DNA of 64,000 nucleotides, from positions 2,192,501-2,256,500 of the forward strand of contig CM067317.1 in assembly GCA_034231615.1 (NCBI GenBank), given 5' to 3'. This stretch comes from Meghimatium bilineatum (lineage: Eukaryota > Mollusca > Gastropoda > Stylommatophora > Philomycidae). A program made the position numbers and the translations under genes. Shown here piece after piece: positions 7,938-63,903 of this stretch; position 1 is the stretch's first letter, and each line of letters begins with the position of its first letter. The notes beneath the pieces were generated by a model. The model saw nothing but the letters and a program-made list of their open reading frames with translations. It ran no database searches and was not told the DNA's origin.

Positions 7938-8073
<136 letters not shown>

Positions 8074-15144: not shown

Positions 15145-15153
15145 GCAATCTAA

Positions 15154-15186
<33 letters not shown>

Positions 15187-15196
15187 CATACATATA
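15145..15196. repeat. (CA)n(TA)n microsatellite at LINE 5' junction
   Basis: A CA run passes into TA/CATA repeats (acacacacacacatatatata) directly before the first in-frame codon of the following LINE copy. The truncated LINE end therefore abuts a microsatellite. Confidence 0.9.
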
Positions 15197-19678: not shown

Positions 19679-19864
19679 ATGGCTTCCAATGCTGACCAAG
19701 CAGTGTTTTCTCAGGATGACGAAGAATTGTGTACAATTGAAGCATCAGTTGTCACAGGATTTGAAGAATCTGCGCGAGGAGAAGCAAGAGAGAAATTTGG
19801 TACAGAAGTTAAAGCTGCTAGGGGACAAATTACATGGAAGGTTCCGTTGAATAAAGTTAATGAT
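19679..19864 (+). CDS. THUMPD3: THUMPD3 exon 1 (N-terminus)
   Basis: Encodes residues 1-62 from ATG at 19679 (MASNADQ) to VNDV, phase 0, followed by a consensus donor gat|gtgagt. It contains ASVVTGFEESARGEAREKFG, the most conserved N-terminal stretch of the family. An in-frame upstream ATG at 19580 would add 33 residues. I prefer 19679 because homologues begin only a few tens of residues before this motif and the upstream peptide looks unconserved. A separate upstream non-coding exon cannot be excluded. Confidence 0.85.
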
Positions 19865-28800: not shown

Positions 28801-31800
28801 TCATTCAGCGACCAAAACATTTCTCATTCAGCGGCCAAACCATTTCAGTCCCTGTTTTAATATATTTGAGCACAGATGTTCCAAGAAACTTATCTTGTCT
28901 TGTCTGTGATCCACCAGTCACTGAGCATCAGGTCATGATATCTTCAGTGTGACATCATGGAGTTGTGATGTTCTGTGATCAATGCTCGGTGTGACATCAT
29001 GGAGTTGTGATGTTCTGTGATCAATGCTCGGTGTGACATCATGAAGTTGTGATGTTCTGTGATCAATGCTCGGTGTGACATCATGGAGTTGTGATGTTCT
29101 GTGATCAATGCTCGGTGTGACATCATGGAGTTGTGATGTTCTGTGATCAATGCTCGGTGTGACATCATGGAGTTGTGATGTTCTGTGATCAATGCTCGGT
29201 GTGACATCATGGAGTTGTGATGTTCTGTGATCAATGCTCGGTGTGACATCATGGATTTGTGATGTTCTGTGATCAATGCTCGGTGTGACATCATGGTGTT
29301 GTGATGTTCTGTTGAGCTGTTCAGGGTTGATGTATAAAATGTGATCAATGCTCCGGCAAACATATTTCAAAACAGAGACTGAAATATTAGACCAACTGTT
29401 GTCCACAAATTATGTAGACAGAGAATATGCTAGGAAAGATGGTCAGACAAAATGCATAGCAGCAACACAAGTATGGGACAGGCTCAACAGAGAACAGGTA
29501 CAAATAAGGGGTAAGGTCCCGTAATCCATGCACACTTTTCACTGCTGCACAATTTAGCATTGTTACTTGTTTGTATAAGATGTCACCCTCTCTGATTGAT
29601 TTTGTGTGTATTTATTTTCCCTAGTGCTTTCTATTGTGCTGCATGGTTGTGAGAGTTGGACACATAACTGCGGACATGGAGAGACGACTACCGACTTTCA
29701 ATACAAATTTTACAGATGAATTCTACGAATCTCCTATAGAGAACATGACAAATGTGTACATAAGAAATTCTTCTTCTTCTTCTTTCGTTCACTTGAAACA
29801 TGTCTATATCTGTAATTCTGTCTCCTTAATAAAACTCACTGTCTTTTGTAGTTCATACAGTGTCCCATAGAGTTTTGATTCCAGTGTTGTTTCCTCTGGC
29901 CAATATGTCTGCCTCAGCGTTTCATGCTCAGAACACTCTTGAAGTATGTGTTTGGCACTCTGTGCTACCTGTCCACATGTACACATGGCTGTGTTGCCAA
30001 TCTTGAACTTTGTATACATGTGACTGCGGAGTCGGTTGTGTCCTGTTCTGAGACGTAGAATTATAACTTGTTCTGGTCTGTTCATAATGTGATAGTCATC
30101 TTGTGTTGGTGTTTGTGGCTTTCTTATTGACTTGATCATCTGTTTTTTCTGATGGTAACATAAGAAATAAAATAGAGATGTATGCAGATCCACAAGAACC
30201 ATTGCTTTAAACAGTGAAATGACGAAAACTTGCAGGGTTTGAACATGTATACCAAGATTATTCCTTGTCAAAAATTAATACTGCAGGGAACAGTTGAAGG
30301 TGGAAAAAGCAGAATGTAAAATAAAAACATGAACAGATAACATCAAGGACAAGATTTTTCCTCACTCATCCGCATCTTTGCAGATAGAAATCGCTGGAGG
30401 ACTGCGTGCTGAAGCATTGAATGTGGTACCACTATCACCTTGACAGGTTTATAGGATAGAGTAGGGTCTTCACTCACTTCTGCTCCATACTGTGTGAGAT
30501 CTTCCTATGTTCATATTGTTTTTTGTTTCTTGACAAACCTATAGTTACAGAAATGTTCATCTACTTCGTTGACCTGGAACTTGCTTATATCAGAAGTTTT
30601 GTCTCTTCTATAAACCTGGCTTTATTTTGTAACTCGTACACAGGTCTGCATTTCATATTCCTGGCATTCCTGAAACACATGCTCTGCACAGAAATGTTGA
30701 ATTTGTCTTGTATTTATTATTTGTGTTTTTTTTTTCTTGACAAAGGTATTCCATACTTCCATATCAGTTGTTAATCTGTTGGTTTTTTTTAATTAGAACT
30801 ACTTTTAACTATGTTCATATTACGTATTTATCTGTCTTACTGCAGCCCACTCATTTGTAAGATTTAAGATTTTTCTCAGATATAGTCATTTAAATTTTGA
30901 ATAATCATTGGTTGTTTATATTTATTCTGAAAGGTTATTCTCAACATTGACAATGACGAAGTCACAGTGTCCCTAGCATTGACAAAAATGAGCTTACATT
31001 ATAGAAACCTGGTCGCGTTTGGACCGACAACTCTCCGAGCAACTATCTGTTACAACATGTTGAGGTATTTGCTGGCAGTCTAGTCTCCTGTATGTTTGAG
31101 GTAGAACTATCACCAGATGGTACATAGTGTTGAATAGAAAGTTGGTCTTTTTACGGTGATTGTCACAGTAACATAAGAGTAATACTTGTAGTGATTGTTA
31201 CAGTAACACAAGAGTAATACTTGTAGTGATTGTTACAGTAACACAAGAGTAATACTTGTAGTGATTGTTACAGTAACATAAGAGTAATACCTGTAGTGAT
31301 TGTTACAGTAACACAAGAGTAATACTTGTAGTGATTGTTACAGCAACACAAGAGTAATACTTGTAGTGATTGTTACAGTAACATAAGTATGATACTTGTA
31401 GTGATTGTTACAGTAACACAAGAGTAATACTTGTAGTGATTGTTACAGTAACACAAGAGTAACACTTGTAGTGATTGTCACAGTAACATAAGTGTGATAC
31501 TTGTAGTGATTGTTACAGTAACAAAAGAGTAATACTTGTAGTGATTGTTACAGTAACACAAGAGTAATACTTGTAGTGATTGTTACAGTAACACAAGAGT
31601 AATACTTGTAGTGATTGTCACAGTAACATAAGTGTGATACTTGTAGTGATTGTTACAGTAACATAAGTGTGATACTTGTAATGATTGTCATAGTAACATA
31701 AGTGTGATACTTGTAATGATTGTCAAATTAACATAAGTGTGATACTTGTAGTGATTGTAACAGTAACACAATAGTGATACTTGTAGTGATTGTAACCATG

Positions 31801-34800
31801 AAATGTGAAACTAATGTTTGTATTACTGATGTCACCAGATTGTGTCATATCAAGAATGGAGATTTTATATGCGACCCAATGTGTGGAACCGCTGCCATCC
31901 CCATAGAGGGTGCTCTGAACTGGGTCAACTGCTATCATTTTGGTGGTGATGTACATGAAAAAGCTATACAGAAAACTGTTCTGAATATTGCAGCTGTACA
32001 AGAAAAAATGAAAATAAGTAACAGGTAGATTCGATCTTTGTTTGTTGCAGAGTTGGCTTTTCTTTTCAGTGTACAAATTGTCACAATCTTATTCTGTTTG
32101 GCTGCAAAAATGCTGTTAAGAAGGTTAGAAGTACCTCGTGATCATTATTGGTTGTAACCCGCGTGGTGTACGCACTACATATCATTACCACAGCACCAAG
32201 TAGCTCGTGAGTACCGGTCTGAGAAAACCTGCTCTGCAGCAATAGGGTACCACTCTTTGCATTATCCATTTGGAAATTATTATTGCTCAAAAGGAATTCT
32301 TGCCTCGCAATCTATAGACACACTCAGTCTATTCATGGATTCAATCTATGGACACACTTGTCCATGTAGCACCTGGTGCTTTGCACGCCGATTCACGACT
32401 TCTCTCTTTAGTCTACTCCACTCTACTGTATTTCAAAATGCAGTGGGTATTCAGCTGTAATTTGGATGTAGGTTAATGCTCTGCAAAACTATTCTGTGCC
32501 CCATATTTGGAAAGTTGAATAAGAAACGCATGGCTCGTACTTACGTGTCTCTAGTGCACCTTAGCATGATATTCGTCGGACTCAATTACCAATGCATATT
32601 CTATCACAGAAACAACCAGACCATGGTATAGAAGAAATAGTAACGTATAGAGTTGCACAGGGACACGTATAGAGGTGCACAGGGACACGTATAGAGGTGC
32701 ACAGGGACACGTATAGAGGTGCACAGGGACACTGGGTTCCAAAGAGATAGGCATTGTTCTTATACAATCCAAGGATTAGCAGATAATCAAAACTCTAAAA
32801 GCACCTTCACGTGGAGCACCCTGGAAACATTTTTTGAAGCTCATACGAAATAGTTTTGCTAGCACTTTATGGATCATGTCTGGGCAGTACAGACTGAGAA
32901 CTGTTTGTACCAGACAAACATCTCTGAATAAACCTTGGCACTCCCAGACAAACATCTCTGAATAAACCTTGGCACTCCCAGACAAACATCTCTGAATAAA
33001 CCTTGGCACTCCCAGACAAACATCTCTGAATAAACCTTGGCACTCCCAGACAAACATCTCTGAATAAACCTTGGCACTCCCAGACAAACATCTCTGAATA
33101 AACCGTGGCACTCCCAGACAAACATCTCTGAATAAACCTTGGCACTCCCAGACAAACATCTCTGAATAAACCTTGGCACACACACCCTCCCAGACAAACA
33201 TCTCTGAATAAACCTTGGCACCCCCACCCTCCCAGACAAACATCTCTGAATAAACCTTGGCACCCCCACCCTCCCAGACAAACATCTCAGAATAAACCTT
33301 GGCACCCCCACCCTCCCAGACAAACATCTCTGAATAAACCTTGGCACTCCCAGACAAACATCTCTGAATAAACCTTGGCACCCCCACCCTCCCAGACAAA
33401 CATTTCTGAATAAACCTTGGCACCCCCACCCTCCCAGACAAACATCTCTGAATAAACCTTGGAACACACCACCCTCCCAGACAAACATCTCTGAATAAAC
33501 CTTGGCACACACCACCCTCCCAGACAAACATCTCTGAATAAACCTTGGCACACACCACCCTCCCAGACAAACATCTCTGAATAAACCTTGGCACACACCA
33601 CCCTCCCAGACAAACATCTCTGAATAAACCTTGGCACTCCCAGACAAACATCTCTGAATAAACCTTGGCACTCCCAGACAAACATCTCTGAATAAACCTT
33701 GGCACACACACCCTCCCAGACAAACATCTCTGAATAAACCTTGGCACTCCCAGACAAACATCTCTGAATAAACCTTGGCACTCCCAGACAAACATCTCTG
33801 AATAAACCTTGGCACTCCCAGACAAACATCTCTGAATAAACCTTGGCACACACACCCTCCCAGACAAACATCTCTGAATAAACCTTGGCACTCCCAGACA
33901 AACATCTCTGAATAAACCTTGGCACTCCCAGACAAACATCTCTGAATAAACCTTGGCACTCCCAGACAAACATCTCTGAATAAACCTTGGCACTCCCAGA
34001 CAAACATCTCTGAATAAACCTTGGCACACACACCCTCCCAGACAAACATCTCTGAATAAACCTTGGCACCCCCACCCTCCCAGACAAACATCTCTGAATA
34101 AACCTTGGCACCCCCACCCTCCCAGACAAACATCTCTGAATAAACCTTGTAACCCCCACCCTCCCAGACAAACATCTCTGAATAAACCTTGGCACCCCCA
34201 CCCTCCCAGACAAACATCTCTGAATAAACCTTGGCACCCCCACCCTCCCAGACAAACATCTCTGAATAAACCTTGGCACTCCCAGACAAACATCTCTGAA
34301 TAAACCTTGGCACCCCCACCCTCCCAGACAAACATCTCTGAATAAACCTTGGCACACACCACCCTCCCAGACAAACATCTCTGAATAAACCTTGGCACAC
34401 ACCACCCTCCCAGACAAACATCTCTGAATAAACCTTGGCACACACCACCCTCCCAGACAAACATCTCTGAATAAACCTTGGCACACACCACCCTCCCAGA
34501 CAAACATCTCTGAATAAACCTTGGCACACACCACCCTCCCAGACAAACATCTCTGAATAAACCTTGGCACCCCCAGACAAACATCTCTGAATAAACCTTG
34601 GCACTCCCAGACAAACATCTCTGAATAAACCTTGGCACACACACCCTCCCAGACAAACATCTCTGCATAAACCTTGGCACTCCCAGACAAACATCTCTGA
34701 ATAAACCTTGGCACTCCCAGACAAACATCTCTGAATAAACCTTGGCACACACACCCTCCCAGACAAACATCTCTGAATAAACCTTGGCACTCCCAGACAA

Positions 34801-37800
34801 ACATCTCTGAATAAACCTTGGCACTCCCAGACAAACATCTCTGAATAAACCTTGGCACTCCCAGACAAACATCTCTGAATAAACCTTGGCACACACACCC
34901 TCCCAGACAAACATCTCTGAATAAACCTTGGCACTCCCAGACAAACATCTCTGAATAAACCTTGGCACTCCCAGACAAACATCTCTGAATAAACCTTGGC
35001 ACTCCCAAACATCTCTGAATAAACCTTGGCACACACACCCTCCCAGACAAACATCTCTGAATAAACCTTGGCACTCCCAGACAAACATCTCTGAATAAAC
35101 CTTGGCACTCCCAGACAAACATCTCTGAATAAACCTTGGCACTCCCAGACAAACATCTCTGAATAAACCTTGGCACTCCCAGACAAACATCTCTGAATAA
35201 ACCTTGGCACTCCCAGACAAACATCTCTGAATAAACCTTGGCACACACACCCTCCCAGACAAACATCTCTGAATAAACCTTGGCACTCCCAGACAAACAT
35301 CTCTGAATAAACCTTGGCACTCCCAGACAAACATCTCTGAATAAACCTTGGCACTCCCAGACAAACATCTCTGAATAAACCTTGGCACACACACCCTCCC
35401 AGACAAACATCTCTGAATAAACCTTGGCACCCCCACCCTCCCAGACAAACATCTCTGAATAAACCTTGGCACCCCCACCCTCCCAGACAAACATCTCTGA
35501 ATAAACCTTGTAACCCCCACCCTCCCAGACAAACATCTCTGAATAAACCTTGGCACCCCCACCCTCCCAGACAAACATCTCTGAATAAACCTTGGCACCC
35601 CCACCCTCCCAGACAAACATCTCTGAATAAACCTTGGCACTCCCAGACAAACATCTCTGAATAAACCTTGGCACCCCCACCCTCCCAGACAAACATCTCT
35701 GAATAAACCTTGGCACACACCACCCTCCAAGACAAACATCTCTGAATAAACCTTGGCACACACCACCCTCCCAGACAAACATCTCTGAATAAACCTTGGC
35801 ACACACCACCCTCCCAGACAAACATCTCTGAATAAACCTTGGCACACACCACCCTCCCAGACAAACATCTCTGAATAAACCTTGGCACACACCACCCTCC
35901 CAGACAAACATCTCTGAATAAACCTTGGCACCCCCAGACAAACATCTCTGAATAAACCTTGGCACTCCCAGACAAACATCTCTGAATAAACCTTGGCACA
36001 CACACCCTCCCAGACAAACATCTCTGCATAAACCTTGGCACTCCCAGACAAACATCTCTGAATAAACCTTGGCACTCGCAGACAAACATCTCTGAATAAA
36101 CCTTGGCACACACACCCTCCCAGACAAACATCTCTGAATAAACCTTGGCACTCCCAGACAAACATCTCTGAATAAACCTTGGCACTCCCAGACAAACATC
36201 TCTGAATAAACCTTGGCACTCCCAGACAAACATCTCTGAATAAACCTTGGCACACACACCCTCCCAGACAAACATCTCTGAATAAACCTTGGCACTCCCA
36301 GACAAACATCTCTGAATAAACCTTGGCACTCCCAGACAAACATCTCTGAATAAACCTTGGCACTCCCAAACATCTCTGAATAAACCTTGGCACACACACC
36401 CTCCCAGACAAACATCTCTGAATAAACCTTGGCACTCCCAGACAAACATCTCTGAATAAACCTTGGCACTCCCAGACAAACATCTCTGAATAAACCTTGG
36501 CACTCCCAGACAAACATCTCTGAATAAACCTTGGCACTCCCAGACAAACATCTCTGAATAAACCTTGGCACTCCCAGACAAACATCTCTGAATAAACCTT
36601 GGCACACACACCCTCCCAGACAAACATCTCTGAATAAACCTTGGCACACACACCCTCCCAGACAAACATCTCTGAATAAACCCGGGCACTCCCAGACAAA
36701 CATCTCTGAATAAACCTTGGCACTCCCAGACAAACATCTCTGAATAAACCTTGGCACACACACCCTCCCAGACAAACATCTCTGAATAAACCTTGGCACT
36801 CCCAGACAAACATCTCTGAATAAACCTTGGCACTCCCAGACAAACATCTCTGAATAAACCTTGGCACACACACCCTCCCAGACAAACATCTCTAAATAAA
36901 CCTTGGCACACACACCCTCCCAGACAAACATCTCTGAATAAACCCGGGCACTCCCAGACAAACATCTCTGAATAAACCTTGGCACTCCCAGACAAACATC
37001 TCTGAATAAACCTTGGCACACACACCCTCCCAGACAAACATCTCTGAATAAACCTTGGCACTCCCAGACAAACATCTCTGAATAAACCTTGGCACACACC
37101 ACCCTCCCAGACAAACATCTCTGAATAAACCTTGGCACCCCCAGACAAACATCTCTGAATAAACCTTGGCACTCCCAGACAAACATCTCTGAATAAACCT
37201 TGGCACTCCCAGACAAACATCTCTGAATAAACCTTGGCACTCCCAGACAAACATCTCTGAATAAACCTTGGCACACACCACCCTCCCAGACAAACATCTC
37301 TGAATAAACCTTGGCACACACCACCCTCCCAGACAAACATCTCTGAATAAACCTTGGCACCCCCAGACAAACATCTCTGAATAAACCTTGGCACTCCCAG
37401 ACAAACATCTCTGAATAAACCTTGGCACACACACCCTCCCAGACAAACATCTCTGAATAAACCTTGGCACTCCCAGACAAACATCTCTGAATAAACCTTG
37501 GCACTCCCAGACAAACATCTCTGAATAAACCTTGGCACTCCCAGACAAACATCTCTGAATAAACCTTGGCACCCCCACCCTCCCAGACAAACATCTCTGA
37601 ATAAACCTTGGCACACACCACCCTCCAAGACAAACATCTCTGAATAAACCTTGGCACACACCACCCTCCCAGACAAACATCTCTGAATAAACCTTGGCAC
37701 ACACCACCCTCCCAGACAAACATCTCTGAATAAACCTTGGCACACACCACCCTCCCAGACAAACATCTCTGAATAAACCTTGGCACACACCACCCTCCCA

Positions 37801-40800
37801 GACAAACATCTCTGAATAAACCTTGGCACCCCCAGACAAACATCTCTGAATAAACCTTGGCACTCCCAGACAAACATCTCTGAATAAACCTTGGCACACA
37901 CACCCTCCCAGACAAACATCTCTGCATAAACCTTGGCACTCCCAGACAAACATCTCTGAATAAACCTTGGCACTCCCAGACAAACATCTCTGAATAAACC
38001 TTGGCACACACACCCTCCCAGACAAACATCTCTGAATAAACCTTGGCACTCCCAGACAAACATCTCTGAATAAACCTTGGCACTCCCAGACAAACATCTC
38101 TGAATAAACCTTGGCACTCCCAGACAAACATCTCTGAATAAACCTTGGCACACACACCCTCCCAGACAAACATCTCTGAATAAACCTTGGCACTCCCAGA
38201 CAAACATCTCTGAATAAACCTTGGCACTCCCAGACAAACATCTCTGAATAAACCTTGGCACTCCCAAACATCTCTGAATAAACCTTGGCACACACACCCT
38301 CCCAGACAAACATCTCTGAATAAACCTTGGCACTCCCAGACAAACATCTCTGAATAAACCTTGGCACTCCCAGACAAACATCTCTGAATAAACCTTGGCA
38401 CTCCCAGACAAACATCTCTGAATAAACCTTGGCACTCCCAGACAAACATCTCTGAATAAACCTTGGCACTCCCAGACAAACATCTCTGAATAAACCTTGG
38501 CACACACACCCTCCCAGACAAACATCTCTGAATAAACCTTGGCACACACACCCTCCCAGACAAACATCTCTGAATAAACCCGGGCACTCCCAGACAAACA
38601 TCTCTGAATAAACCTTGGCACTCCCAGACAAACATCTCTGAATAAACCTTGGCACACACACCCTCCCAGACAAACATCTCTGAATAAACCTTGGCACTCC
38701 CAGACAAACATCTCTGAATAAACCTTGGCACTCCCAGACAAACATCTCTGAATAAACCTTGGCACACACACCCTCCCAGACAAACATCTCTAAATAAACC
38801 TTGGCACACACACCCTCCCAGACAAACATCTCTGAATAAACCCGGGCACTCCCAGACAAACATCTCTGAATAAACCTTGGCACTCCCAGACAAACATCTC
38901 TGAATAAACCTTGGCACACACACCCTCCCAGACAAACATCTCTGAATAAACCTTGGCACTCCCAGACAAACATCTCTGAATAAACCTTGGCACACACCAC
39001 CCTCCCAGACAAACATCTCTGAATAAACCTTGGCACCCCCAGACAAACATCTCTGAATAAACCTTGGCACTCCCAGACAAACATCTCTGAATAAACCTTG
39101 GCACTCCCAGACAAACATCTCTGAATAAACCTTGGCACTCCCAGACAAACATCTCTGAATAAACCTTGGCACACACCACCCTCCCAGACAAACATCTCTG
39201 AATAAACCTTGGCACACACCACCCTCCCAGACAAACATCTCTGAATAAACCTTGGCACCCCCAGACAAACATCTCTGAATAAACCTTGGCACTCCCAGAC
39301 AAACATCTCTGAATAAACCTTGGCACACACACCCTCCCAGACAAACATCTCTGAATAAACCTTGGCACTCCCAGACAAACATCTCTGAATAAACCTTGGC
39401 ACTCCCAGACAAACATCTCTGAATAAACCTTGGCACTCCCAGACAAACATCTCTGAATAAACCTTGGCACACACCACCCTCCCAGACAAACATCTCTGAA
39501 TAAACCTTGGCACTCCCAGACAAACATCTCTGAATAAACCTTGGCACACACACCCTCCCAGACAAACATCTCTGAATAAACCTTGGCACTCCCAGACAAA
39601 CATCTCTGAATAAACCTTGGCACACACACCCTCCCAGACAAACATCTCTGAATAAACCTTGGCACACACACCCTCCCAGACAAACATCTCTGAATAAACC
39701 TTGGCACACACACCCTCCCAGACAAACATCTCTGAATAAACCTTGGCACACACCACCCTCCCAGACAAACATCTCTGAATAAACCTTGGCACACACCACC
39801 CTCCCAGACAAACATCTCTGAATAAACCTTGGCACCCCCAGACAAACATCTCTGAATAAACCTTGGCACTCCCAGACAAACATCTCTGAATAAACCTTGG
39901 CACACACACCCTCCCAGACAAACATCTCTGCATAAACCTTGGCACTCCCAGACAAACATCTCTGAATAAACCTTGGCACTCCCAGACAAACATCTCTGAA
40001 TAAACCTTGGCACACACACCCTCCCAGACAAACATCTCTGAATAAACCTTGGCACTCCCAGACAAACATCTCTGAATAAACCTTGGCACACACACCCTCC
40101 CAGACAAACATCTCTGAATAAACCTTGGCACTCCCAGACAAACATCTCTGAATAAACCTTGGCACTCCCAGACAAACATCTCTGAATAAACCTTGGCACA
40201 CACACCCTCCCAGACAAACATCTCTGAATAAACCTTGGCACTCCCAGACAAACATCTCTGAATAAACCTTGGCACTCCCAGACAAACATCTCTGAATAAA
40301 CCTTGGCACTCCCAGACAAACATCTCTGAATAAACCTTGGCACTCCCAGACAAACATCTCTGAATAAACCTTGGCACTCCCAGACAAACATCTCTGAATA
40401 AACCTTGGCACACACACCCTCCCAGACAAACATCTCTGAATAAACCTTGGCACTCCCAGACAAACATCTCTGAATAAACCTTGGCACTCCCAGACAAACA
40501 TCTCTGAATAAACCTTGGCACTCCCAGACAAACATCTCTGAATAAACCTTGGCACACACACCCTCCCAGACAAACATCTCTGAATAAACCATGGCACTCC
40601 CAGACAAACATCTCTGAATAAACCTTGGCACTCCCAGACAAACATCTCTGAATAAACCTTGGCACTCCCAGACAAACATCTCTGAATAAACCTTGGCACA
40701 CACACCCTCCCAGACAAACATCTCTAAATAAACCTTGGCACACACACCCTCCCAGACAAACATCTCTGAATAAACCTTGGCACTCCCAGACAAACATCTC

Positions 40801-43800
40801 TGAATAAACCTTGGCACTCCCAGACAAACATCTCTGAATAAACCTTGGCACACACACCCTCCCAGACAAATATCTCTGAATAAACCTTGGCACTCCCAGA
40901 CAAACATCTCTGAATAAACCTTGGCACTCCCAGACAAACATCTCTGAATAAACCTTGGCACACACCACCCTCCCAGACAAACATCTCTGAATAAACCTTG
41001 GCACCCCCAGACAAACATCTCTGAATAAACCTTGGCACTCCCAGACAAACATCTCTGAATAAACCTTGGCACTCCCAGACAAACATCTCTAAATAAACCT
41101 TGGCACTCCCAGACAAACATCTCTGAATAAACCTTGGCACACACCACCCTCCCAGACAAACATCTCTGAATAAACCTTGGCACACACCACCCTCCCAGAC
41201 AAACATCTCTGAATAAACCTTGGCACCCCCAGACAAACATCTCTGAATAAACCTTGGCACTCCCAGACAAACATCTCTGAATAAACCTTGGCACACACAC
41301 CCTCCTAGACAAACATCTCTGAATAAACCTTGGCACTCCCAGACAAACATCTCTGAATAAACCTTGGCACTCCCAGACAAACATCTCTGAATAAACCTTG
41401 GCACTCCCAGACAAACATCTCTGAATAAACCTTGGCACACACCACCCTCCCAGACAAACATCTCTGAATAAACCTTGGCACTCCCAGACAAACATCTCTG
41501 AATAAACCTTGGCACACACACCCTCCCAGACAAACATCTCTGAATAAACCTTGGCACTCCCAGACAAACATCTCTGAATAAACCTTGGCACACACACCCT
41601 CCCAGACAAACATCTCTGAATAAACCTTGGCACACACACCCTCCCAAACAAACATCTCTGAATAAACCTTGGCACACACACACCCTCCCAGACAAACATC
41701 TCTGAATAAACCTTGGCACACACACCCTCCCAGACAAACATCTCTGAATAAACCTTGGCACTCCCAGACAAACATCTCTGAATAAACCTTGGCACTCCCA
41801 GACAAACATCTCTGAATAAACCTTGGCACTCCCAGACAAACATCTCTGAATAAACCTTGGCACTCCCAGACAAACATCTCTGAATAAACCGTGGCACTCC
41901 CAGACAAACATCTCTGAATAAACCTTGGCACTCCCAGACAAACATCTCTGAATAAACCTTGGCACACACACCCTCCCAGACAAACATCTCAGAATAAACC
42001 TTGGCACCCCCACCCTCCCAGACAAACATCTCTGAATAAACCTTGGCACTCCCAGACAAACATCTCTGAATAAACCTTGGCACCCCCACCCTCCCAGACA
42101 AACATCTCTGAATAAACCTTGGCACCCCCACCCTCCCAGACAAACATCTCTGAATAAACCTTGGCACACACCACCCTCCCAGACAAACATCTCTGAATAA
42201 ACCTTGGCACACACCACCCTCCCAGACAAACATCTCTGAATAAACCTTGGCACACACCACCCTCCCAGACAAACATCTCTGAATAAACCTTGGCACACAC
42301 CACCCTCCCAGACAAACATCTCTGAATAAACCTTAGCACTCCCAGACAAACATCTCTGAATAAACCTTGGCACTCCCAGACAAACATCTCTGAATAAACC
42401 TTGGCACACACACCCTCCCAGACAAACATCTCTGAATAAACCTTGGCACTCCCAGACAAACATCTCTGAATAAACCTTGGCACTCCCAGACAAACATCTC
42501 TGAATAAACCTTGGCACTCCCAGACAAACATCTCTGAATAAACCTTGGCACACACACCCTCCCAGACAAACATCTCTGAATAAACCTTGGCACTCCCAGA
42601 CAAACATCTCTGAATAAACCTTGGCACTCCCAGACAAACATCTCTGAATAAACCTTGGCACTCCCAGACAAACATCTCTGAATAAACCTTGGCACTCCCA
42701 GACAAACATCTCTGAATAAACCTTGGCACACACACCCTCCCAGACAAACATCTCTGAATAAACCTTGGCACCCCCACCCTCCCAGACAAACATCTCTGAA
42801 TAAACCTTGGCACCCCCACCCTCCCAGACAAACATCTCTGAATAAACCTTGGCACCCCCACCCTCCCAGACAAACATCTCTGAATAAACCTTGGCACTCC
42901 CAGACAAACATCTCTGAATAAACCTTGGCACACACACCCTCCCAGACAAACATCTCTGAATAAACCTTGGCACTCCCAGACAAACATTTCTGAATAAACC
43001 TTGGCACACACACCCTCCCAGACAAACATCTCTGAATAAACCTTGGCACTCCCAGACAAACATCTCTGAATAAACCTTGGCACTCCCAGACAAACATCTC
43101 TGAATAAACCTTGGCACACACACCCTCCCAGACAAACATCTCTGAATAAACCTTGGCACTCCCAGACAAACATCTCTGAATAAACCTTGGCACTCCCAGA
43201 CAAACATCTCTGAATAAACCTTGGCACTCCCAGACAAACATCTCTGAATAAACCTTGGCACTCCCAGACAAACATCTCTGAATAAACCTTGGCACTCCCA
43301 GACAAACATCTCTGAATAAACCTTGGCACACACACCCTCCCAGACAAACATCTCTGAATAAACCTTGGCACTCCCAGACAAACATCTCTGAATAAACCTT
43401 GGCACTCCCAGACAAACATCTCTGAATAAACCTTGGCACTCCCAGACAAACATCTCTGAATAAACCTTGGCACACACACCCTCCCAGACAAACATCTCTG
43501 AATAAACCTTGGCACACACACCCTCCCAGACAAACATCTCTGAATAAACCTTGGCACTCCCAGACAAACATCTCTGAATAAACCTTGGCACTCCCAGACA
43601 AACATCTCTGAATAAACCTTGGCACACACACCCTCCCAGACAAATATCTCTGAATAAACCTTGGCACTCCCAGACAAACATCTCTGAATAAACCTTGGCA
43701 CCCCCAGACAAACATCTCTGAATAAACCTTGGCACTCCCAGACAAACATCTCTGAATAAACCTTGGCACTCCCAGACAAACATCTCTGAATAAACCTTGG

Positions 43801-46800
43801 CACTCCCAGACAAACATCTCTGAATAAACCTTGGCACACACCACCCTCCCAGACAAACATCTCTGAATAAACCTTGGCACACACCACCCTCCCAGACAAA
43901 CATCTCTGAATAAACCTTGGCACCCCCAGACAAACATCTCTGAATAAACCTTGGCACTCCCAGACAAACATCTCTGAATAAACCTTGGCACACACACCCT
44001 CCCAGACAAACATCTCTGAATAAACCTTGGCACTCCCAGACAAACATCTCTGAATAAACCTTGGCACTCCCAGACAAACATCTCTGAATAAACCTTGGCA
44101 CTCCCAGACAAACATCTCTGAATAAACCTTGGCACACACACCCTCCCAGACAATCATCTCTGAATAAACCTTGGCACTCCCAGACAAACATCTCTGAATA
44201 AACCTTGGCACACACACCCTCCCAGACAAACATCTCTGAATAAACCTTGGCACTCCCAGACAAACATCTCTGAATAAACCTTGGCACACACACCCTCCCA
44301 GACAAACATCTCTGAATAAACCTTGGCACACACACCCTCCCAGACAAACATCTCTGAATAAACCTTGGCACACACACACCCTCCCAGACAAACATCTCTG
44401 AATAAACCTTGGCACACACACCCTCCCAGACAAACATCTCTGAATAAACTCGGCACTCCCAGACAAACATCTCTGAATAAACCTTGGCACTCCCAGACAA
44501 ACATCTCTGAATAAACCTTGGCACTCCCAGACAAACATCTCTGAATAAACCGTGGCACTCCCAGACAAACATCTCTGAATAAACCTTGGCACACACCACC
44601 CTCCCAGACAAACATCTCTGAATAAACCTTGGCACACACCACCCTCCCAGACAAACATCTCTGAATAAACCTTGGCACACACCACCCTCCCAGACAAACA
44701 TCTCTGAATAAACCTTAGCACTCCCAGACAAACATCTCTGAATAAACCTTGGCACTCCCAGACAAACATCTCTGAATAAACCTTGGCACACACACCCTCC
44801 CAGACAAACATCTCTGAATAAACCTTGGCACTCCCAGACAAACATCTCTGAATAAACCTTGGCACTCCCAGACAAACATCTCTGAATAAACCTTGGCACT
44901 CCCAGACAAACATCTCTGAATAAACCTTGGCACACACACCCTCCCAGACAAACATCTCTGAATAAACCTTGGCACTCCCAGACAAACATCTCTGAATAAA
45001 CCTTGGCACTCCCAGACAAACATCTCTGAATAAACCTTGGCACTCCCAGACAAACATCTCTGAATAAACCTTGGCACTCCCAGACAAACATCTCTGAATA
45101 AACCTTGGCACACACACCCTCCCAGACAAACATCTCTGAATAAACCTTGGCACCCCCACCCTCCCAGACAAACATCTCTGAATAAACCTTGGCACCCCCA
45201 CCCTCCCAGACAAACATCTCTGAATAAACCTTGGCACCCCCACCCTCCCAGACAAACATCTCTGAATAAACCTTGGCACTCCCAGACAAACATCTCTGAA
45301 TAAACCTTGGCACACACACCCTCCCAGACAAACATCTCTGAATAAACCTTGGCACTCCCAGACAAACATTTCTGAATAAACCTTGGCACACACACCCTCC
45401 CAGACAAACATCTCTGAATAAACCTTGGCACTCCCAGACAAACATCTCTGAATAAACCTTGGCACTCCCAGACAAACATCTCTGAATAAACCTTGGCACA
45501 CACACCCTCCCAGACAAACATCTCTGAATAAACCTTGGCACTCCCAGACAAACATCTCTGAATAAACCTTGGCACTCCCAGACAAACATCTCTGAATAAA
45601 CCTTGGCACTCCCAGACAAACATCTCTGAATAAACCTTGGCACTCCCAGACAAACATCTCTGAATAAACCTTGGCACTCCCAGACAAACATCTCTGAATA
45701 AACCTTGGCACACACACCCTCCCAGACAAACATCTCTGAATAAACCTTGGCACTCCCAGACAAACATCTCTGAATAAACCTTGGCACTCCCAGACAAACA
45801 TCTCTGAATAAACCTTGGCACTCCCAGACAAACATCTCTGAATAAACCTTGGCACACACACCCTCCCAGACAAACATCTCTGAATAAACCTTGGCACACA
45901 CACCCTCCCAGACAAACATCTCTGAATAAACCTTGGCACTCCCAGACAAACATCTCTGAATAAACCTTGGCACTCCCAGACAAACATCTCTGAATAAACC
46001 TTGGCACACACACCCTCCCAGACAAATATCTCTGAATAAACCTTGGCACTCCCAGACAAACATCTCTGAATAAACCTTGGCACCCCCAGACAAACATCTC
46101 TGAATAAACCTTGGCACTCCCAGACAAACATCTCTGAATAAACCTTGGCACTCCCAGACAAACATCTCTGAATAAACCTTGGCACTCCCAGACAAACATC
46201 TCTGAATAAACCTTGGCACACACCACCCTCCCAGACAAACATCTCTGAATAAACCTTGGCACACACCACCCTCCCAGACAAACATCTCTGAATAAACCTT
46301 GGCACCCCCAGACAAACATCTCTGAATAAACCTTGGCACTCCCAGACAAACATCTCTGAATAAACCTTGGCACACACACCCTCCCAGACAAACATCTCTG
46401 AATAAACCTTGGCACTCCCAGACAAACATCTCTGAATAAACCTTGGCACTCCCAGACAAACATCTCTGAATAAACCTTGGCACTCCCAGACAAACATCTC
46501 TGAATAAACCTTGGCACACACACCCTCCCAGACAATCATCTCTGAATAAACCTTGGCACTCCCAGACAAACATCTCTGAATAAACCTTGGCACACACACC
46601 CTCCCAGACAAACATCTCTGAATAAACCTTGGCACTCCCAGACAAACATCTCTGAATAAACCTTGGCACACACACCCTCCCAGACAAACATCTCTGAATA
46701 AACCTTGGCACACACACCCTCCCAGACAAACATCTCTGAATAAACCTTGGCACACACACACCCTCCCAGACAAACATCTCTGAATAAACCTTGGCACACA

Positions 46801-49800
46801 CACCCTCCCAGACAAACATCTCTGAATAAACTCGGCACTCCCAGACAAACATCTCTGAATAAACCTTGGCACTCCCAGACAAACATCTCTGAATAAACCT
46901 TGGCACTCCCAGACAAACATCTCTGAATAAACCGTGGCACTCCCAGACAAACATCTCTGAATAAACTTTGGCACTCCCAGACAAACATCTCTGAATAAAC
47001 CTTGGCACACACACCCTCCCAGACAAACATCTCTGAATAAACCTTGGCACCCCCACCCTCCCAGACAAACATCTCTGAATAAACCTTGGCACTCCCAGAC
47101 AAACATCTCTGAATAAACCTTGGCACCCCCACCCTCCCAGACAAACATCTCTGAATAAACCTTGGCACCCCCACCCTCCCAGACAAACATCTCTGAATAA
47201 ACCTTGGCACACACCACCCTCCCAGACAAACATCTCTGAATAAACCTTGGCACACACCACCCTCCCAGACAAACATCTCTGAATAAACCTTGGCACACAC
47301 CACCCTCCCAGACAAACATCTCTGAATAAACCTTGGCACACACCACCCTCCCAGACAAACATCTCTGAATAAACCTTGGCACTCCCAGACAAACATCTCT
47401 GAATAAACCTTGGCACTCCCAGACAAACATCTCTGAATAAACCTTGGCACACACACCCTCCAAGACAAACATCTCTGAATAAACCTTGGCACTCCCAGAC
47501 AAACATCTCTGAATAAACCTTGGCACTCCCAGACAAACATCTCTGAATAAACCTTGGCACTCCCAGACAAACATCTCTGAATAAACCTTGGCACACACAC
47601 CCTCCCAGACAAACATCTCTGAATAAACCTTGGCACTCCCAGACAAACATCTCTGAATAAACCTTGGCACTCCCAGACAAACATCTCTGAATAAACCTTG
47701 GCACTCCCAGACAAACATCTCTGAATAAACCTTGGCACACACCACCCTCCCAGACAAACATCTCTGAATAAACCTTGGCACACACCACCCTCCCAGACAA
47801 ACATCTCTGAATAAACCTTGGCACACACCACCCTCCCAGACAAACATCTCTGAATAAACCTTGGCACACACCACCCTCCCAGACAAACATCTCTGAATAA
47901 ACCTTGGCACACACCACCCTCCCAGACAAACATCTCTGAATAAACCTTGGCACACACCACCCTCCCAGACAAACATCTCTGAATAAACCTTGGCACCCCC
48001 AGACAAACATCTCTGAATAAACCTTGGCACTCCCAGACAAACATCTCTGAATAAACCTTGGCACACACACCCTCCCAGACAAACATCTCTGCATAAACCT
48101 TGGCACTCCCAGACAAACATCTCTGAATAAACCTTGGCACTCCCAGACAAACATCTCTGAATAAACCTTGGCACACACACCCTCCCAGACAAACATCTCT
48201 GAATAAACCTTGGCACTCCCAGACAAACATCTCTGAATAAACCTTGGCACACACACCCTCCCAGACAAACATCTCTGAATAAACCTTGGCACTCCCAGAC
48301 AAACATCTCTGAAGAAACCTTGGCACTCCCAGACAAACATCTCTGAATAAACCTTGGCACTCCCAGACAAACATCTCTGAATAAACCTTGGCACCCCCAC
48401 CCTCCCAGACAAACATCTCTGAATAAACCTTGGCACCCCCACCCTCCCAGACAAACATCTCTGAATAAACCTTGGCACACACCACCCTCCCAGACAAACA
48501 TCTCTGAATAAACCTTGGCACACACCACCCTCCCAGACAAACATCTCTGAATAAACCTTGGCACACACCACCCTCCCAGACAAACATCTCTGAATAAACC
48601 TTGGCACACACCACCCTCCCAGACAAACATCTCTGAATAAACCTTGGCACACACCACCCTCCCAGACAAACATCTCTGAATAAACCTTGGCACACACCAC
48701 CCTCCCAGACAAACATCTCTGAATAAACCTTGGCACCCCCAGACAAACATCTCTGAATAAACCTTGGCACTCCCAGACAAACATCTCTGAATAAACCTTG
48801 GCACACACACCCTCCCAGACAAACATCTCTGCATAAACCTTGGCACTCCCAGACAAACATCTCTGAATAAACCTTGGCACTCCCAGACAAACATCTCTGA
48901 ATAAACCTTGGCACACACACCCTCCCAGACAAACATCTCTGAATAAACCTTGGCACTCCCAGACAAACATCTCTGAATAAACCTTGGCACACACACCCTC
49001 CCAGACAAACATCTCTGAATAAACCTTGGCACTCCCAGACAAACATCTCTGAAGAAACCTTGGCACTCCCAGACAAACATCTCTGAATAAACCTTGGCAC
49101 ACACACCCTCCCAGACAAACATCTCTGAATAAACCTTGGCACTCCCAGACAAACATCTCTGAATAAACCTTGGCACTCCCAGACAAACATCTCTGAATAA
49201 ACCTTGGCACTCCCAGACAAACATCTCTGAATAAACCTTGGCACTCCCAGACAAACATCTCTGAATAAACCTTGGCACTCCCAGACAAACATCTCTGAAT
49301 AAACCTTGGCACACACACCCTCCCAGACAAACATCTCTGAATAAACCTTGGCACTCCCAGACAAACATCTCTGAATAAACCTTGGCACTCCCAGACAAAC
49401 ATCTCTGAATAAACCTTGGCACTCCCAGACAAACATCTCTGAATAAACCTTGGCACACACACCCTCCCAGACAAACATCTCTGAATAAACCTTGGCACAC
49501 ACACCCTTCCAGACAAACATCTCTGAATAAACCTTGGCACTCCCAGACAAACATCTCTGAATAAACCTTGGCACTCCCAGACAAACATCTCTGAATAAAC
49601 CTTGGCACACACACCCTCCCAGACAAATATCTCTGAATAAACCTTGGCACTCCCAGACAAACATCTCTGAATAAACCTTGGAACTCCCAGACAAACATCT
49701 CTGAATAAACCTTGGCACACACCACCCTCCCAGACAAACATCTCTGAATAAACCTTGGCACCCCCAGACAAACATCTCTGAATAAACCTTGGCACTCCCA

Positions 49801-52800
49801 GACACACATCTCTGAATAAACCTTGGCACTCCCAGACAAACATCTCTGAATAAACCTTGGCACTCCCAGACAAACATCTCTGAATAAACCTTGGCACACA
49901 CCACCCTCCCAGACAAACATCTCTGAATAAACCTTGGCACACACCACCCTCCCAGACAAACATCTCTGAATAAACCTTGGCACCCCCAGACAAACATCTC
50001 TGAATAAACCTTGGCACTCCCAGACAAACATCTCTGAATAAACCTTGGCACACACACCCTCCCAGACAAACATCTCTGAATAAACCTTGGCACTCCCAGA
50101 CAAACATCTCTGAATAAACCTTGGCACACACCACCCTCCCAGACAAACATCTCTGAATAAACCTTGGCACTCCCAGACAAACATCTCTGAATAAACCTTG
50201 GCACACACACCCTCCCAGACAAACATCTCTGAATAAACCTTGGCACTCCCAGACAAACATCTCTGAATAAACCTTGGCACACACACCCTCCCAGACAAAC
50301 ATCTCTGAATAAACCTTGGCACACACACCCTCCCAGACAAACATCTCTGAATAAACCTTGGCACACACACACCCTCCCAGACAAACATCTCTGAATAAAC
50401 CTTGGCACACACACCCTCCCAGACAAACATCTCTGAATAAACCTTGGCACCCCCACCCTCCCAGACAAACATCTCTGAATAAACCTTGGCACACACACCC
50501 TCCCAGACAAACATCTCTGAATAAACCTTGGCACACACACCACAACCCCCCCCCCCCCCCCCCAAAGCCAAAATACTTTCGCAGCACGGTTAAAAACAAC
50601 AGCTGGCCTGGAGTACCAGGTTGTCATGTCTGAAAGTTCACTAAAGCAAGGATAGTGATAAAGTCTCAGAAGTATGATTTGTCTCTTGAGTACGCGCAGA
50701 GACAGCACAGCGCTAGAGGACAGCATTATGTGCAAGAATAAGTGAGAATAATGTAATAAAAGCAATGTTCATGCTTAAGAACAAACTTCAAGCTGTCTTC
50801 TGGCAGCGAGTTGTGTGAAATGGTAACAGCAGAGCTGTCTTCTGGCAGCGAGTTGTGTGATATGGTAACAGCAGAATACCCTACCGCCCCGGTATGAAAA
50901 AATGTGGGTAGAAGTTCAGACTTATACCATATTCAAGATGGCAGTGAATGAAATCTCATCTGAGAGTGTACCAACTCAAGTTCAACTTTACAGTTTGAGC
51001 AGTTTCCTATACCAGGCTCACTGTTGAGATAAGGGCCAGTATCCAAGTACACATGGGGCAGTGGCATCTAATTATATGAGACAAGTTCACTAACAGCACA
51101 ACACATCGAGAAAGACATAGTTTACCCAAGTCTAAATCCTTGTTCAACATCTCCTTGGAAACTGCCACTCAGGGATACATTTTGGCCTGCAGAGTCTAAG
51201 GGCACAGTGGGTGATAAACTGTCATGGTATAGAGCAGATACTCATTCGTTTGTCTGGCAATAGATAGGAAAGCTATCACTGAGACTCCTGTACCAATAAC
51301 AATTTCTATTAGTGACAATATATCAATAGTTCCATTGGTTCCAAAAATGACTAATCACTATCATGATGTGGCATATTTCAGGAGTTCCTTGAAACTCGAT
51401 GCTCTCCAGTGGGATATTCAACATCTTCCCTTGAGGGACAAATGTGTGGATGTTTTTGTCTCAGATTTGGTAGGGAGCCTTGTTCTTATCTTACAATTAT
51501 ATTCAATAGTTTACACACATCTTAGTTATACCACTAGTTCACACACATCTTACAATAGTTCACACACATCTTACAATTATATTCAATAGTTCACACACAT
51601 CTTACAATTATATTCAATAGTTCACACACATCTTACAATTATATCCGTAGTTTACCTCTTACAGTTATTTCATTTTGATTAGTGACAATATATAATGTGA
51701 CAAGTGACAATCTATCAGTATAAAGTCATAAGAAGTAGAAAGTATGTAGTTTAATATCTACACTAGGTCAACTCTATGATCTGCCCATCAAAAATTGTTC
51801 GCAGGTGGATCTGTACCTTATTTTCATATGGCAGGCTGTTGTTTTGTAGCTAGTGGTAGAGTCACCGCCAAGTGCAACAGAGCACATATGACAAGTGCTT
51901 GCATTAAAAGAGCTAAGGTTACCTAGGTGGTACATTAGTTGGTACACTTGCTCACTGTGTCTGACTGTTTAGTGTTGCAATATCTTTCGTTATTTTGAAT
52001 GACGCTATTCTAATTTATATATTTTCTTTTGATTTATTTTTACAGCCATTTGGACACAGGTGAGTTAAATTAAACCTCAGGGCACAGGTACATTAAATTA
52101 AACCTCTGGATACAAGGTCACTTAAATTAAACCTCTGGATACAAGGTCAGTTAAATTAAACCTCTGGACCATGGTGATTTAAATTAAACCTTGAGGCACA
52201 GGTGAGTTAAATTAAACCTCAGAACACAGGTGAGTTAAATTCAGTAACAATAGCAAATATGCACGTAATAACAACACACACATCTATAAAACAACAATGT
52301 GCACTTACCAGCATCAAACACATCAGTAATAACAGCAAATATATAAAAACAGTGAACTCCGTAACAAAAGCAGTAATGCATGTAACAAACATCAGTAACA
52401 CATCAGTAACAATAAACACATCAGTATCATTTGTGAGATTACATGAAACCTACCTGTGCCATTTGTTAGATTACATGAAACCTACCTGTCTCATTTGTGA
52501 GATACCATCTCAGCTTACCTGAGAACACATGCAGCGAAGGTGTGATTTGTGACAGATGTCTTGCTGTGCCTGAGCACGTACACCAGGTGATAGATTAAAC
52601 CAGGAAAGATCTGAATGCAGTAATGACTGTAGCAAACTGAGCAACACCATCTAATTTTCTTGTCTCAGGGTTTGGTCCTTTTAGCTATCGAATAAGCTCG
52701 GACAATTCATCTCTCAGACACATAGGCAAATGGAAAAACTGCAGAGCGAGGCAATGTGCATCATTCTTGGATGCAATACAGATATATCATGTGTAGCGAT

Positions 52801-55800
52801 GTGCTATCTCCTTGATTTTCTCAGCACGGAGAACAAATATCTGTCGAGTTCTTGCTTTCCTTCGAGTTAGTGCAGACATATATCATCTTCTGTACTGAGA
52901 AATTAGAACTAAGAGAAGCAAGCTTAAAGAGAACATTCTTGGATGAGTTAGGCTGAGAATATTATTGAACATGTATGTCTACTCTATGACATAGATCCTG
53001 GTCCAGAATAGCCATCATAACTACGAAATGTCTTTTTTAGTACAACACAGAATTACAAAATGTCATTTTTAGTACAACACAGAACTACAAAATGTCATTT
53101 TATGTCATTTTTAGTACACCACTGAACTACAAAATGTATTTTTTAGTACAACACAGAACTACAAAATGTATTTTTTAGTACAACACAGAACTACAAAATG
53201 TATTTCTGACAAATCGTGTCAGCTACTTGGTGGTGGAAGTAGAAGTTTAGTCTTTGATTTTTGAGTATTCCTTTGAGAGAGACGTCATTTATGCTGATGC
53301 TTGTGTTATACGGAATGTGCACAGTTCATGGATAGATTGGAAAGAGAATTGTGAATTAAGAGAGTGGTAGTATTTGTTGCAACTACAAGGAGAATGGTAT
53401 AGATTGTGGTAGTATTTGTTGCAACTACAAGGAGAATGGTATAGATTGGATACCATTGGCCCAACACATCTGTCTTCAGCGGATGTTAAAGTTTCAAATC
53501 TACAGTCATGTATGCTGCTGTCTCAGCAACTCAATGAGCGTGCTAAGAAAGATTGAGAATGACTAGACATGCAGACAGTGGTTGGAATCTGGTGTGGTCT
53601 AATCTGAGAAGAATCGGTTTCATATTTGTGCTTGGATGTGCCGGTGTCCAAGGAAATGAATGCACAGACAGACTTGCTGCTACTGTAATCATGGGGACTG
53701 GACAAGCAGTAGACTGAGCTAATGTTCTAAATGCTCTTAGGGTGATCGGACAAGTGACTAATCGGACAAGAATCTTTAACCTTGAGCAGACTACAGGAAT
53801 ATCATGTCAAGAGCGATATGGCTAAAGAAGAGCATTATACAGGTAGCCAGAGGAATCTAGCAAACCAACGCAGAAGGGTGTGGTTAGTCACCGTAAGCTG
53901 AGGGATATCTGGAGGAGGAGATCTGAGAACATTGTTTCAATATGCAGTAAAGATGATCTGTTTGAATAAAATAACTTATCAAAGTCATTGTGAGATATGA
54001 AATACTCTGAAACATATCTATGACATCTAATGATAAATGATGTGTCCTATTTTAGGATAGGTTCCAGGTCCAAAAACCCTGCTCTTTATTCTCATTTGTT
54101 AACTGAAATGGCTAGGACAGCAAGAACAGGTGCTAGAGCGTGCCTGCTAACGGAAGATAAAGCCAGCTTAATCAAGGTCAGTCTTGACTTAATTGTGTAT
54201 GTTGTGTAGGGGAGTATCCAGGAATCAAAGATGTCAATGTTTAAATTGAAGTTGTATATTCAAAAATGTTTTATCCTCTGCAGTTTTTCATGTTGAAATT
54301 TTATTAAAGTTCCATATTTGAGTTGCTTCTGCAAGAGACACAAGCCAAACAATTATCATTTCAAGGCTTAGTGAGCTATGTTAACCTGACAAGCCCCACG
54401 CATTACGGTGAGGTGATTCTCGTACAACATGGCATGTCACACTGTCTGCTCAACCTGACACGTGGGATAATGGAGATGAGAGTTGCAGGGGTACAGATCA
54501 TAATTCGTAGACAAAGATGGAACATTATTAATATCTATGTTCGAAACTGTTCCCACGTCAAGCCCAAAGACTGGAATTTTCTGAATGAGTTGGAAGACCT
54601 CCCGGGAGATTGTCTATTAGTGTGCGGAGACTTCAATTCTCGAAATATCGCCTGGGGAAACCCAAACAACAACACACAGGAAATAGCACTATGCAAGGCC
54701 CTGCTAGAGACTGATCTCACTATTCTTAATTGTGCCAGAATGACCAGGTTAGCTACCAAAGAGACAGACTCAGTATCAAAAATTGACCTTGCACTGGTGT
54801 TGTGTCATGGTGAAATGGAAACGATGTGGGCGGCACTGGCTTACCATGGTAGTGACCACGTACCATGCGCGGTAATAATCACAAAAGGGCAGAACTGTAA
54901 AATTAACAAGAGACAACATACCATTAAATATAGGCGCAACGAAGAGTCGTTCTTGAGCAAGTTAGTTGCGATAAATGGCATGGCAAAAAAATACAGTGAG
55001 GCAAAACATGCAACAACCCCCTCCCCCTGGTGAACTGAAGAGATAAGAGTCTGCATGGGTAAAGAAGAAGCAAAGTGTCCAGGAGTGACAACATGAGAGA
55101 TGACAGACACAAGTCACCATGGAAAGCAAAAAAAGAGTCAAGAGATTACTATGAAGAAGACCACTGAAGCCTTTAAACAAATCGTAAAGGAAGCTAAGAA
55201 ACAACACTGGGATAATTTTGCACAGATGTTGCAGCCGACAGTGCCCTATACAAATTTTGGAAATTACACAAGGCAATGAAGAAAACGGATACAAAATTAA
55301 ACTTGAAGGACGAGTCAGGGCTTATACTAACCACAGATTCTTCTTTAGCTTTCATTCTTAAACTCCTGCTCGATCTCTCTTATAGCAGGACCATGGTCCT
55401 TTTAGATTTCTAGCAGGATGTAGTCCAGAGAATGGAAATGTGTTGTGTCGCTGTTTTATTTGCACCAATAGCCCGATACATCCGTCTTCGGCAGATAACC
55501 ACAGATGAGCAGAAGGGCAGCGCTTTCTTCAGTAGATATCTCCAACAATCAGATCAGAACAATATTGATGAACTAAGACTATAGTGGCCACTTTAACAGC
55601 ATTGCTGGTAACAAACCATATTGCTGATGAGGAACTGGTCTCGTTGGAGGATGTAAAAGAGACCATAAAGAAAACATCAGATGGTACACCAGGAGCCGAC
55701 GGAATACGCTACAGCCTCCTGAAAGATATTACAGACGACGAGCTTAAAACAACTGTTGATGATTTCAACACAAGTCTGAAAACAGGACGCATACCAGAAG

Positions 55801-63030: not shown

Positions 63031-63903
63031 CACTTATCCATATTCTTCTTCTTTCGTTCACTTGAAACATGTCTATATCTGTAATTCTGTCTCCTGAATA
63101 AAACTCAGTCTTTTGTAGTTCATACAGTGTCCCATAGAGTTTTGATTCCAGTGTTGTTTCCTCTGTCCAATATGTCTGCCTCTTGAAGTATATGTTTGGC
63201 ACTCTGTGCTGCCTGTACACATGGCTGTGTTGCCAATCTTGAACTTTGTATACATGTGACTGCGGAGTCGGTTGTGTCCTGTTCTGAGACGTAGAATTAT
63301 AACTTGTTCTGGTCTGTTCATAATGTGATAGTCATCTTGTGTTGGTGTTTGTGGCTTTCTTATTGACTTGATCATCTGTTTTTTCTGATGGTAGGTGATT
63401 GGTATATCTGGTTGGTCTTCGGCAGCACCTTCCTTAGCCAGTTGGTCTGCTTTTTCATTTCCTGGTATTCCACAGTGAGAGGGTATCCACTGCATGGTTA
63501 CCCTATACTGGTAAGACAATTCGCTAAGTAGTTTTTTCAAGTCTGTTGGTTTTTCAGACTGGAGAGCTTGAAGCACTGATCTTGCATCTGTCAGGAATAC
63601 CACAGGCTGTAGGTCAGAGATGGAGTTCAGCAGTTTTTTAGCTGCCACACTAATTGCCTGGATTTCTACATCATAATTATTGCAGAATTTTCCTGTCGGT
63701 GTTCTGATTGTATCTCAAGGCTTGTGTGGATATTCTATATATACACCTGCACCTCCATTCCTCACGGCATTCTGTGCTGACCCATTAGTGTATACTCTGA
63801 CCCATATATCTTGTGGATATTCCTCATCCAGGAAACTGAGGGTGACTGTCCTTCGCTGCACACTGTTCTGTTCGTCCTCGCTTAGTATTCCACTTATCCA
63901 TAT
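63031..63903 (-). mobile_element. LINE family B copy with 13-bp target-site duplication
   Basis: The insertion 63044-63890 is flanked by cacttatccatat at 63031-63043 and 63891-63903. The minus strand contains RNase H and C-terminal sequence as at 56379-57218, starting slightly further 5' (EDEQNSVQRRTVTLSFLDEE). It is inactivated: the first RNase H aspartate is changed (YTDGS to YTNGS, about 63787), there is a stop in the HKP-DTIRTP stretch (about 63717), and a small deletion and frameshift removes part of the CTCGQ...ECSEH segment near 63180-63220. (GAA)n tail at its 3' end. Confidence 0.92.

Follow-up and report, generated by a model that had tools for sequence, protein, structure and literature searches.

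The closest described parallel to the locus reported here is the intronic VNTR of the human CACNA1C gene, a 30-bp-unit array called TRACT that ranges from 3 to more than 30 kb (preprint PMC13131567). It shares with our array the intronic location, a unit of about 30 bp, a similar size and a mixture of unit variants. Its expansion was inferred to proceed via perfect tracts of equal units, which number as many as 26 in the shortest of the long alleles, and a pedigree of 23 persons is reported with no new length or sequence change and, by Southern blot, no somatic mosaicism (PMC13131567). By analogy with CACNA1C, an intronic VNTR of the size described below would not be surprising taken alone. 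The human ABCA7 gene, whose intronic VNTR is called a 10,000-bp VNTR (PMC6857246), is likewise a protein-coding gene that carries in an intron a minisatellite reaching about 10 kb (PMC5954066, PMC6857246); there, length has been tied to exon skipping and expression, whereas our array is known from sequence alone. The Drosophila Y genes kl-3 and kl-5, with their gigantic satellite-filled introns (PMC6508621, PMC11207136), also have an intron that consists largely of tandem repeats and yet has to be transcribed and spliced. These introns lie in Y-linked genes, contain megabases of simple satellite and call for RNA-binding proteins if the genes are to be expressed, whereas here a 17.6-kb minisatellite was found at one locus. 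Among the matches listed in the literature search, no title or opening of an abstract deals with this locus or with a minisatellite built on a splice donor.

The window, that is, the whole stretch of DNA that was analysed, comprises 64,000 nt of the forward strand of the Meghimatium bilineatum assembly GCA_034231615.1 (CM067317.1:2,192,501-2,256,500; assembly handle C20:2192501-2256500). The array and its 3' border are located as follows:

32910..50534, + strand: minisatellite array with 469 units, of which most measure 34, 42 or 43 bp (TRF, unit parse and class map)
50546..50563, + strand: poly(C), n = 18, directly past the 3' end of the array (sequence inspection)

TRF returned a single array of 17,625 bp at 32910-50534 (period 34, 468.9 copies, score 19407), which a parse with a fixed anchor divided into 469 units. 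When the array end was set at 50545, unit lengths were 34 bp (n = 260), 42 bp (n = 136) and 43 bp (n = 63), with a minority of 44 bp (n = 4), 30 bp (n = 3), 33 bp (n = 2) and 41 bp (n = 1). The unit sizes of 34, 42 and 43 bp given in a preliminary description of this DNA are therefore borne out; as for its coordinates, 32910..50545, the start agrees, but the end lies 11 bp beyond the TRF end. The unit consists of AGACAAACATCTCTGAATAAACCTTGGCAC followed by a tail, which is TCCC, CCCC, ACACACCCTCCC, CCCCACCCTCCC or ACACCACCCTCCC, and the classes used in the parse and the class map are told apart by this tail 3' of GGCAC. The commonest unit sequence is present in 212 copies, and the distinct unit sequences number 33 with the end at 50534 and 34 with the end at 50545. 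The array is composed of 0.358 C, 0.350 A, 0.185 T and 0.106 G. A G-quadruplex pattern search found four-run G3 motifs on neither strand, and 33 two-tetrad patterns on the minus strand. The run of 18 C at 50546-50563 is a possible site of sequencing error.

The array lies within a THUMPD3-like gene, whose frame of 752 residues extends over nine coding exons (19679-59072) and, in the sequence model, is intact to the stop codon. All eight introns begin with GT and end with AG. The parts of the gene are listed below:

19679..19864, + strand: exon 1, coding part from the ATG (edge picked among several frame-keeping options)
24863..24937, + strand: exon 2 (edge picked among several frame-keeping options)
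27022..28197, + strand: exon 3, where the THUMP match begins (frame, splice sites and domain match)
30934..31064, + strand: exon 4 (frame and splice sites; genome protein match)
31839..32024, + strand: exon 5, with motif I, DPMCGTAAIPIEGA (frame and splice sites; genome protein match)
32025..51381, + strand: host intron (intron 5), 19,357 bp, GTAGAT..TTTCAG, phase 2 (sequence model)
51382..51469, + strand: exon 6, ending in ...VFVSDL (frame and splice sites; genome protein match)
52046..52059, + strand: exon 7, a 14-nt microexon, PFGHR (frame and splice sites only)
54056..54176, + strand: exon 8 (frame and splice sites; genome protein match)
58791..59072, + strand: exon 9, including the stop codon (frame and splice sites; genome protein match)

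Exons 3 to 9 were set by frame and splice sites, and the choice of the exon 1 and exon 2 edges was aided by a human protein. Introns 1 to 8 measure 4998, 2084, 2736, 774, 19357, 576, 1996 and 4614 bp, so that intron 5, with the array in it, is nearly four times as long as the next longest. Pfam detected a THUMP domain (30.9 bits, cut-off 20.6, E 3.6e-07) and a UPF0020 methyltransferase domain (111.3 bits, cut-off 22.3, E 6.4e-32) in the 752-aa frame, which also carries the DPMCGT and DLPFG motifs of THUMPD3. The only solved-structure matches to the protein were to archaeal-type tRNA G10 methyltransferase (E 0.002). The nine-exon frame and the domain matches support both the THUMPD3-type gene and the exon numbers of the preliminary description. 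Its central claim, a 17.6-kb minisatellite in one intron, was confirmed by TRF together with the gene model, which also upholds an intron of about 19.3 kb between exons 5 and 6 that is over 90% array (19,357 bp, 91%). What we take to be motif I and motif IV of the methyltransferase flank the array as had been proposed, motif I lying in exon 5 and motif IV, SDL|PFG, being interrupted by the intron that follows exon 6. We call the gene THUMPD3-like: by the human sequences and the motifs PFGxRxGS and NxGGLxxxVxLLxRT, it is presumably an orthologue of THUMPD3 rather than of THUMPD2. THUMPD3 has been described as an m2G tRNA methyltransferase (PMC11630588). When a 230-residue query from exons 4-9 was compared with the whole assembly at E <= 0.001, the five protein matches obtained were exons 4, 5, 6, 8 and 9 of this gene, and no second copy was found.

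Several smaller features were observed around these exons. Microexon 7 is situated at the start of a 28-bp minisatellite (52046-52241), as is the donor of this exon, ACAG|GTGAGT. The donor position recurs six more times, twice as the exact ACAG|GTGAGT (after 52201 and 52229), and use of any of these six would place a stop right after PFGHR. Another minisatellite (58552-58703), 88 bp upstream of exon 9, contains six acceptor-like TTTTCAG sites, and a 35-bp minisatellite (31156-31793) takes up the greater part of intron 4 (774 bp), its end lying 46 bp short of exon 5. Within 27021-59072, 7 of the 13 exon edges tested (exons 3-9 minus the exon 3 donor) are at most 100 bp from one of 36 tandem arrays, as compared to 1.85 expected by random placement (P 0.0032), a post hoc figure from one gene with non-independent edges and from a null that barred edges within arrays, whereas one real edge lies inside one. 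The window also contains the following open frames from the ORF list, which by their look are presumably reverse transcriptase/RNase H remnants of non-LTR retrotransposons:

13480-14535, - strand: open frame
15114-16892, + strand: open frame
56412-57251, - strand: open frame
63073-63714, - strand: open frame

The frames 56412-57251 (-) and 63073-63714 (-) and a piece at 29804-30274 (-) have long protein stretches in common and apparently belong to a single family as copies of it.

The unit was searched for in the entire assembly (1,612,235,226 bases, 1.61 Gb, 32 contigs). An exact 32-base core of the unit occurs 418 times in the genome, always on the forward strand, and 418 times in the window; a 25-base core, searched with a tolerance of 3 mismatches, occurs 467 times in both, again always forward (these counts may be lower bounds). 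No copy of the unit outside the window was found by these core searches of the 1.61-Gb assembly, a result that rests on the equality of the genome and window counts, with the first 100 genome places listed. By these counts the array is not a member of a dispersed satellite DNA family, in which the same unit would occur at many loci, and an origin of the unit from a dispersed satellite or transposon was rejected, because the core searches found no copies elsewhere in the genome. Comparison of the unit with the rest of the window by blastn gave only a 25-bp match (E 0.42), and the unit was absent from the viral_contigs and genome_contigs collections, as expected for viruses and prokaryotes. The array flanks match other stretches of the window with 66-82% identity over 56-205 bp, in addition to shorter matches, and these look like old dispersed repeats.

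Within the array, 21 pairs of near-identical stretches were found that align without gaps over 500 bp or more, with 0-4 mismatches, and they cover 15,959 of its 17,625 bp. Four of them are tandem or nearly so:

42176..46966, + strand: tandem block duplication, period 2,382 bp, 0 mismatches over 2,409 bp (pair search; longest block)
35606..39470, + strand: tandem block duplication, period 1,898 bp, 1 mismatch over 1,967 bp
33891..36647, + strand: tandem block duplication, period 1,361 bp, 2 mismatches over 1,396 bp
47704..49100, + strand: near-tandem pair, offset 740 bp, 83 bp between the copies, 0 mismatches over 657 bp

The remaining 17 pairs are 2.0-14.2 kb apart and have 0-4 mismatches. A regular higher-order repeat of the alphoid style was considered and rejected, the periods being 1361, 1898 and 2382 bp, with an offset of 740 bp and 17 pairs elsewhere. 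At the level of unit classes, the blocks that recur in the array are 36, 51 and 64 units long. The longest repeated string, of 64 units, exceeds both null models: 500 shuffles of the unit order gave no more than 16 units, and 500 first-order Markov strings no more than 23; the block pattern is therefore not due to chance. Class autocorrelation at a fixed lag, a weaker test, did not rise above the shuffles: its best value (0.440, as compared to a shuffle maximum of 0.429 at any lag) belongs to lag 1, and lag 64 gave 0.417. The mixed and patterned unit classes that had been noted earlier are thus supported by both the class map and the repeated string. Runs of equal units are short, the longest being of 6 units and 217 of the 304 runs being of a single unit. 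In this respect, and in its repeated multi-unit blocks, the array differs from the perfect-tract model of CACNA1C. We interpret this arrangement as the outcome of successive duplications of blocks, accompanied by internal exchange. The ongoing unequal exchange that the preliminary description had proposed can be refined: the recent growth that is visible took place by duplication of blocks of tens of units, for which exchange would be a putative mechanism. High length variability between individuals would be a reasonable expectation, on which the CACNA1C pedigree counsels caution.

The genomic background of the array was assessed in 25 stretches of 10 kb from the same genome (L009-L033), in which arrays of period 10-100 and at least 80 bp were counted. 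The first 20 stretches contain 109 arrays covering 38,549 of 200,000 bp, and the 25 together contain 130 counted arrays covering 50,207 of 250,000 bp, about 20% minisatellite. Only 2 of the 25 lack arrays; the median stretch is 15.6% minisatellite, the mean without stretch L032 is 16.9%, and the window without the main array gives 15.8%. These values may be set beside a VNTR content of roughly 3% for the human genome, which follows a different definition (PMC10373352). Arrays are therefore the rule in this genome. As a tandem array of units in the range of 10-100 bp, located in an intron of the sequence-based gene model, ours is a known kind of object, an intronic minisatellite in a minisatellite-rich genome. 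Stretch L032 is almost entirely one array of about 9.9 kb (25-9884, 89-93 bp unit, super-periods of 176-268 bp), which is perhaps clipped by the stretch and which array counting had split into eleven arrays, the longest of 3,749 bp. This weakens the case for the 17.6-kb length as an outlier. The number of arrays of this size expected genome-wide is 0.014 by a lognormal fit and 17 by a Pareto tail, two fits that were made without L032 on 109 arrays with lengths clipped at 10 kb and that are three orders of magnitude apart. Very long arrays may not be rare in this genome.

The motif content of the array was then counted on each strand. AATAAA is present in sense in 461 of the 469 units, as compared to 0.80 per kb on either strand in the rest of the window. 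GT occurs in sense 6 times in 17.6 kb, while the rest of the window has 70 per kb; on the minus strand of the array there are 2,415 GT, 283 TGTGT and no AATAAA. The six sense GT sites are four CCGTGG and two TTGTAA, none of which, judged by eye and unscored, is near the donor consensus. TTTT, TGTGT and TTGTT were each counted zero times on the sense strand of the whole array. YAG is found in sense 466 times, and in 93 cases 11 or more of the 15 upstream positions are pyrimidines. The absence of GT from a single unit is unremarkable, because 37% of letter-shuffled 34-mers share it (2.4% hold a sense AATAAA), and a lack of sense GT is not a shared trait of the window's other arrays. One 300-nt sense piece folds slightly better than its shuffles (z -1.99, with 7 of 200 shuffles as good). 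In animals, RNA processing depends on partner signals, which are splice donors and the U- or GU-rich elements downstream of AATAAA. The sense RNA would carry decoy polyadenylation hexamers and, possibly, weak decoy acceptors without such partners. Since donors and downstream U/GU elements are missing in sense, we infer that the array RNA is nearly or mostly inert to splicing and 3' processing.

Taking these results together, we consider it very probable that the array is a giant intronic minisatellite, private to this locus as far as found, which grew recently by block duplication and is removed with its intron as passenger DNA. The array, the gene frame, the blocks, the single locus as far as found and the motif counts were read directly from the sequence. 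The duplication of blocks may have taken place by unequal sister-chromatid exchange or by template switching in break repair. The array would be transcribed across and then spliced out with intron 5, and the host intron may be tolerated owing to the few usable processing signals on the transcribed sense strand: with hardly any sense GT, it would offer essentially no usable donors and no cryptic exons, and the 461 AATAAA would be tolerated because no U- or GU-rich downstream element adjoins them. The share of about 20% minisatellite in the sampled genome speaks for this reading; the possible decoy acceptors among the 466 YAG, the slight folding of the sense piece and the ease with which a single unit lacks GT speak against it.

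These same signals may be read in the opposite sense, as parts of a regulatory array in which length, AATAAA or the acceptor-like CCCTCCCAG would lead to early polyadenylation, to slowed elongation or to the skipping of exons, so that output is tuned by allele length. The 461 sense AATAAA and the 93 pyrimidine-rich YAG are consistent with this, as are the reports that ABCA7 VNTR length is linked to lower expression and exon 19 skipping (PMC5954066) and that long CACNA1C alleles have lower expression in fibroblasts and testis (PMC13131567). We hold such a role to be unlikely, however, since without TTTT, TGTGT and TTGTT, and with almost no GT in sense, cleavage and exon definition would have to proceed without their usual partners. 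It is about equally improbable that the array length is in part an artefact of the assembly, through false duplications that produced the perfect 2,382-bp and 740-bp-offset copies, or through the collapse of a longer array. Copies that agree without a mismatch, over 2,409 bp in one case and 657 bp in the other, are what such an error might leave, but most of the 21 pairs have 1-4 mismatches and their offsets are many, which an assembler would hardly invent, and the flanks and exons are in order on one 68-Mb contig. That the array is a minus-strand coding sequence or a repeat-protein gene was suggested by minus-strand open frames of up to 3,299 codons in the ORF list. These are open because the unit has no minus-strand stop, a property not far to seek, as 17% of shuffled 34-mers are open in all frames on one strand; moreover, every unit of 34 or 43 bp changes the reading frame, and a single peptide repeat is therefore not kept. 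On the shuffle test and the frame shifts this reading was rejected, and we regard it as hardly conceivable.

An intronic minisatellite that grew by blocks and would leave with its intron provides a clean natural case in which to ask how a gene for RNA modification, apparently present in a single copy, copes with a 17.6-kb intronic array, and it raises the question of whether block growth is limited by the content of the transcribed strand. A more general proposal would be that giant intronic arrays persist only in a processing-silent orientation, free of donors and of downstream polyadenylation elements, and that it would be left to selection acting on the transcribed strand which minisatellites may grow. 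We put this forward as a speculation that is unlikely to hold; if it were true, the orientation and motif content of an intronic array would predict its maximum length. With a minisatellite share of about one fifth in the sample, the same question can be asked over very many introns of this genome.
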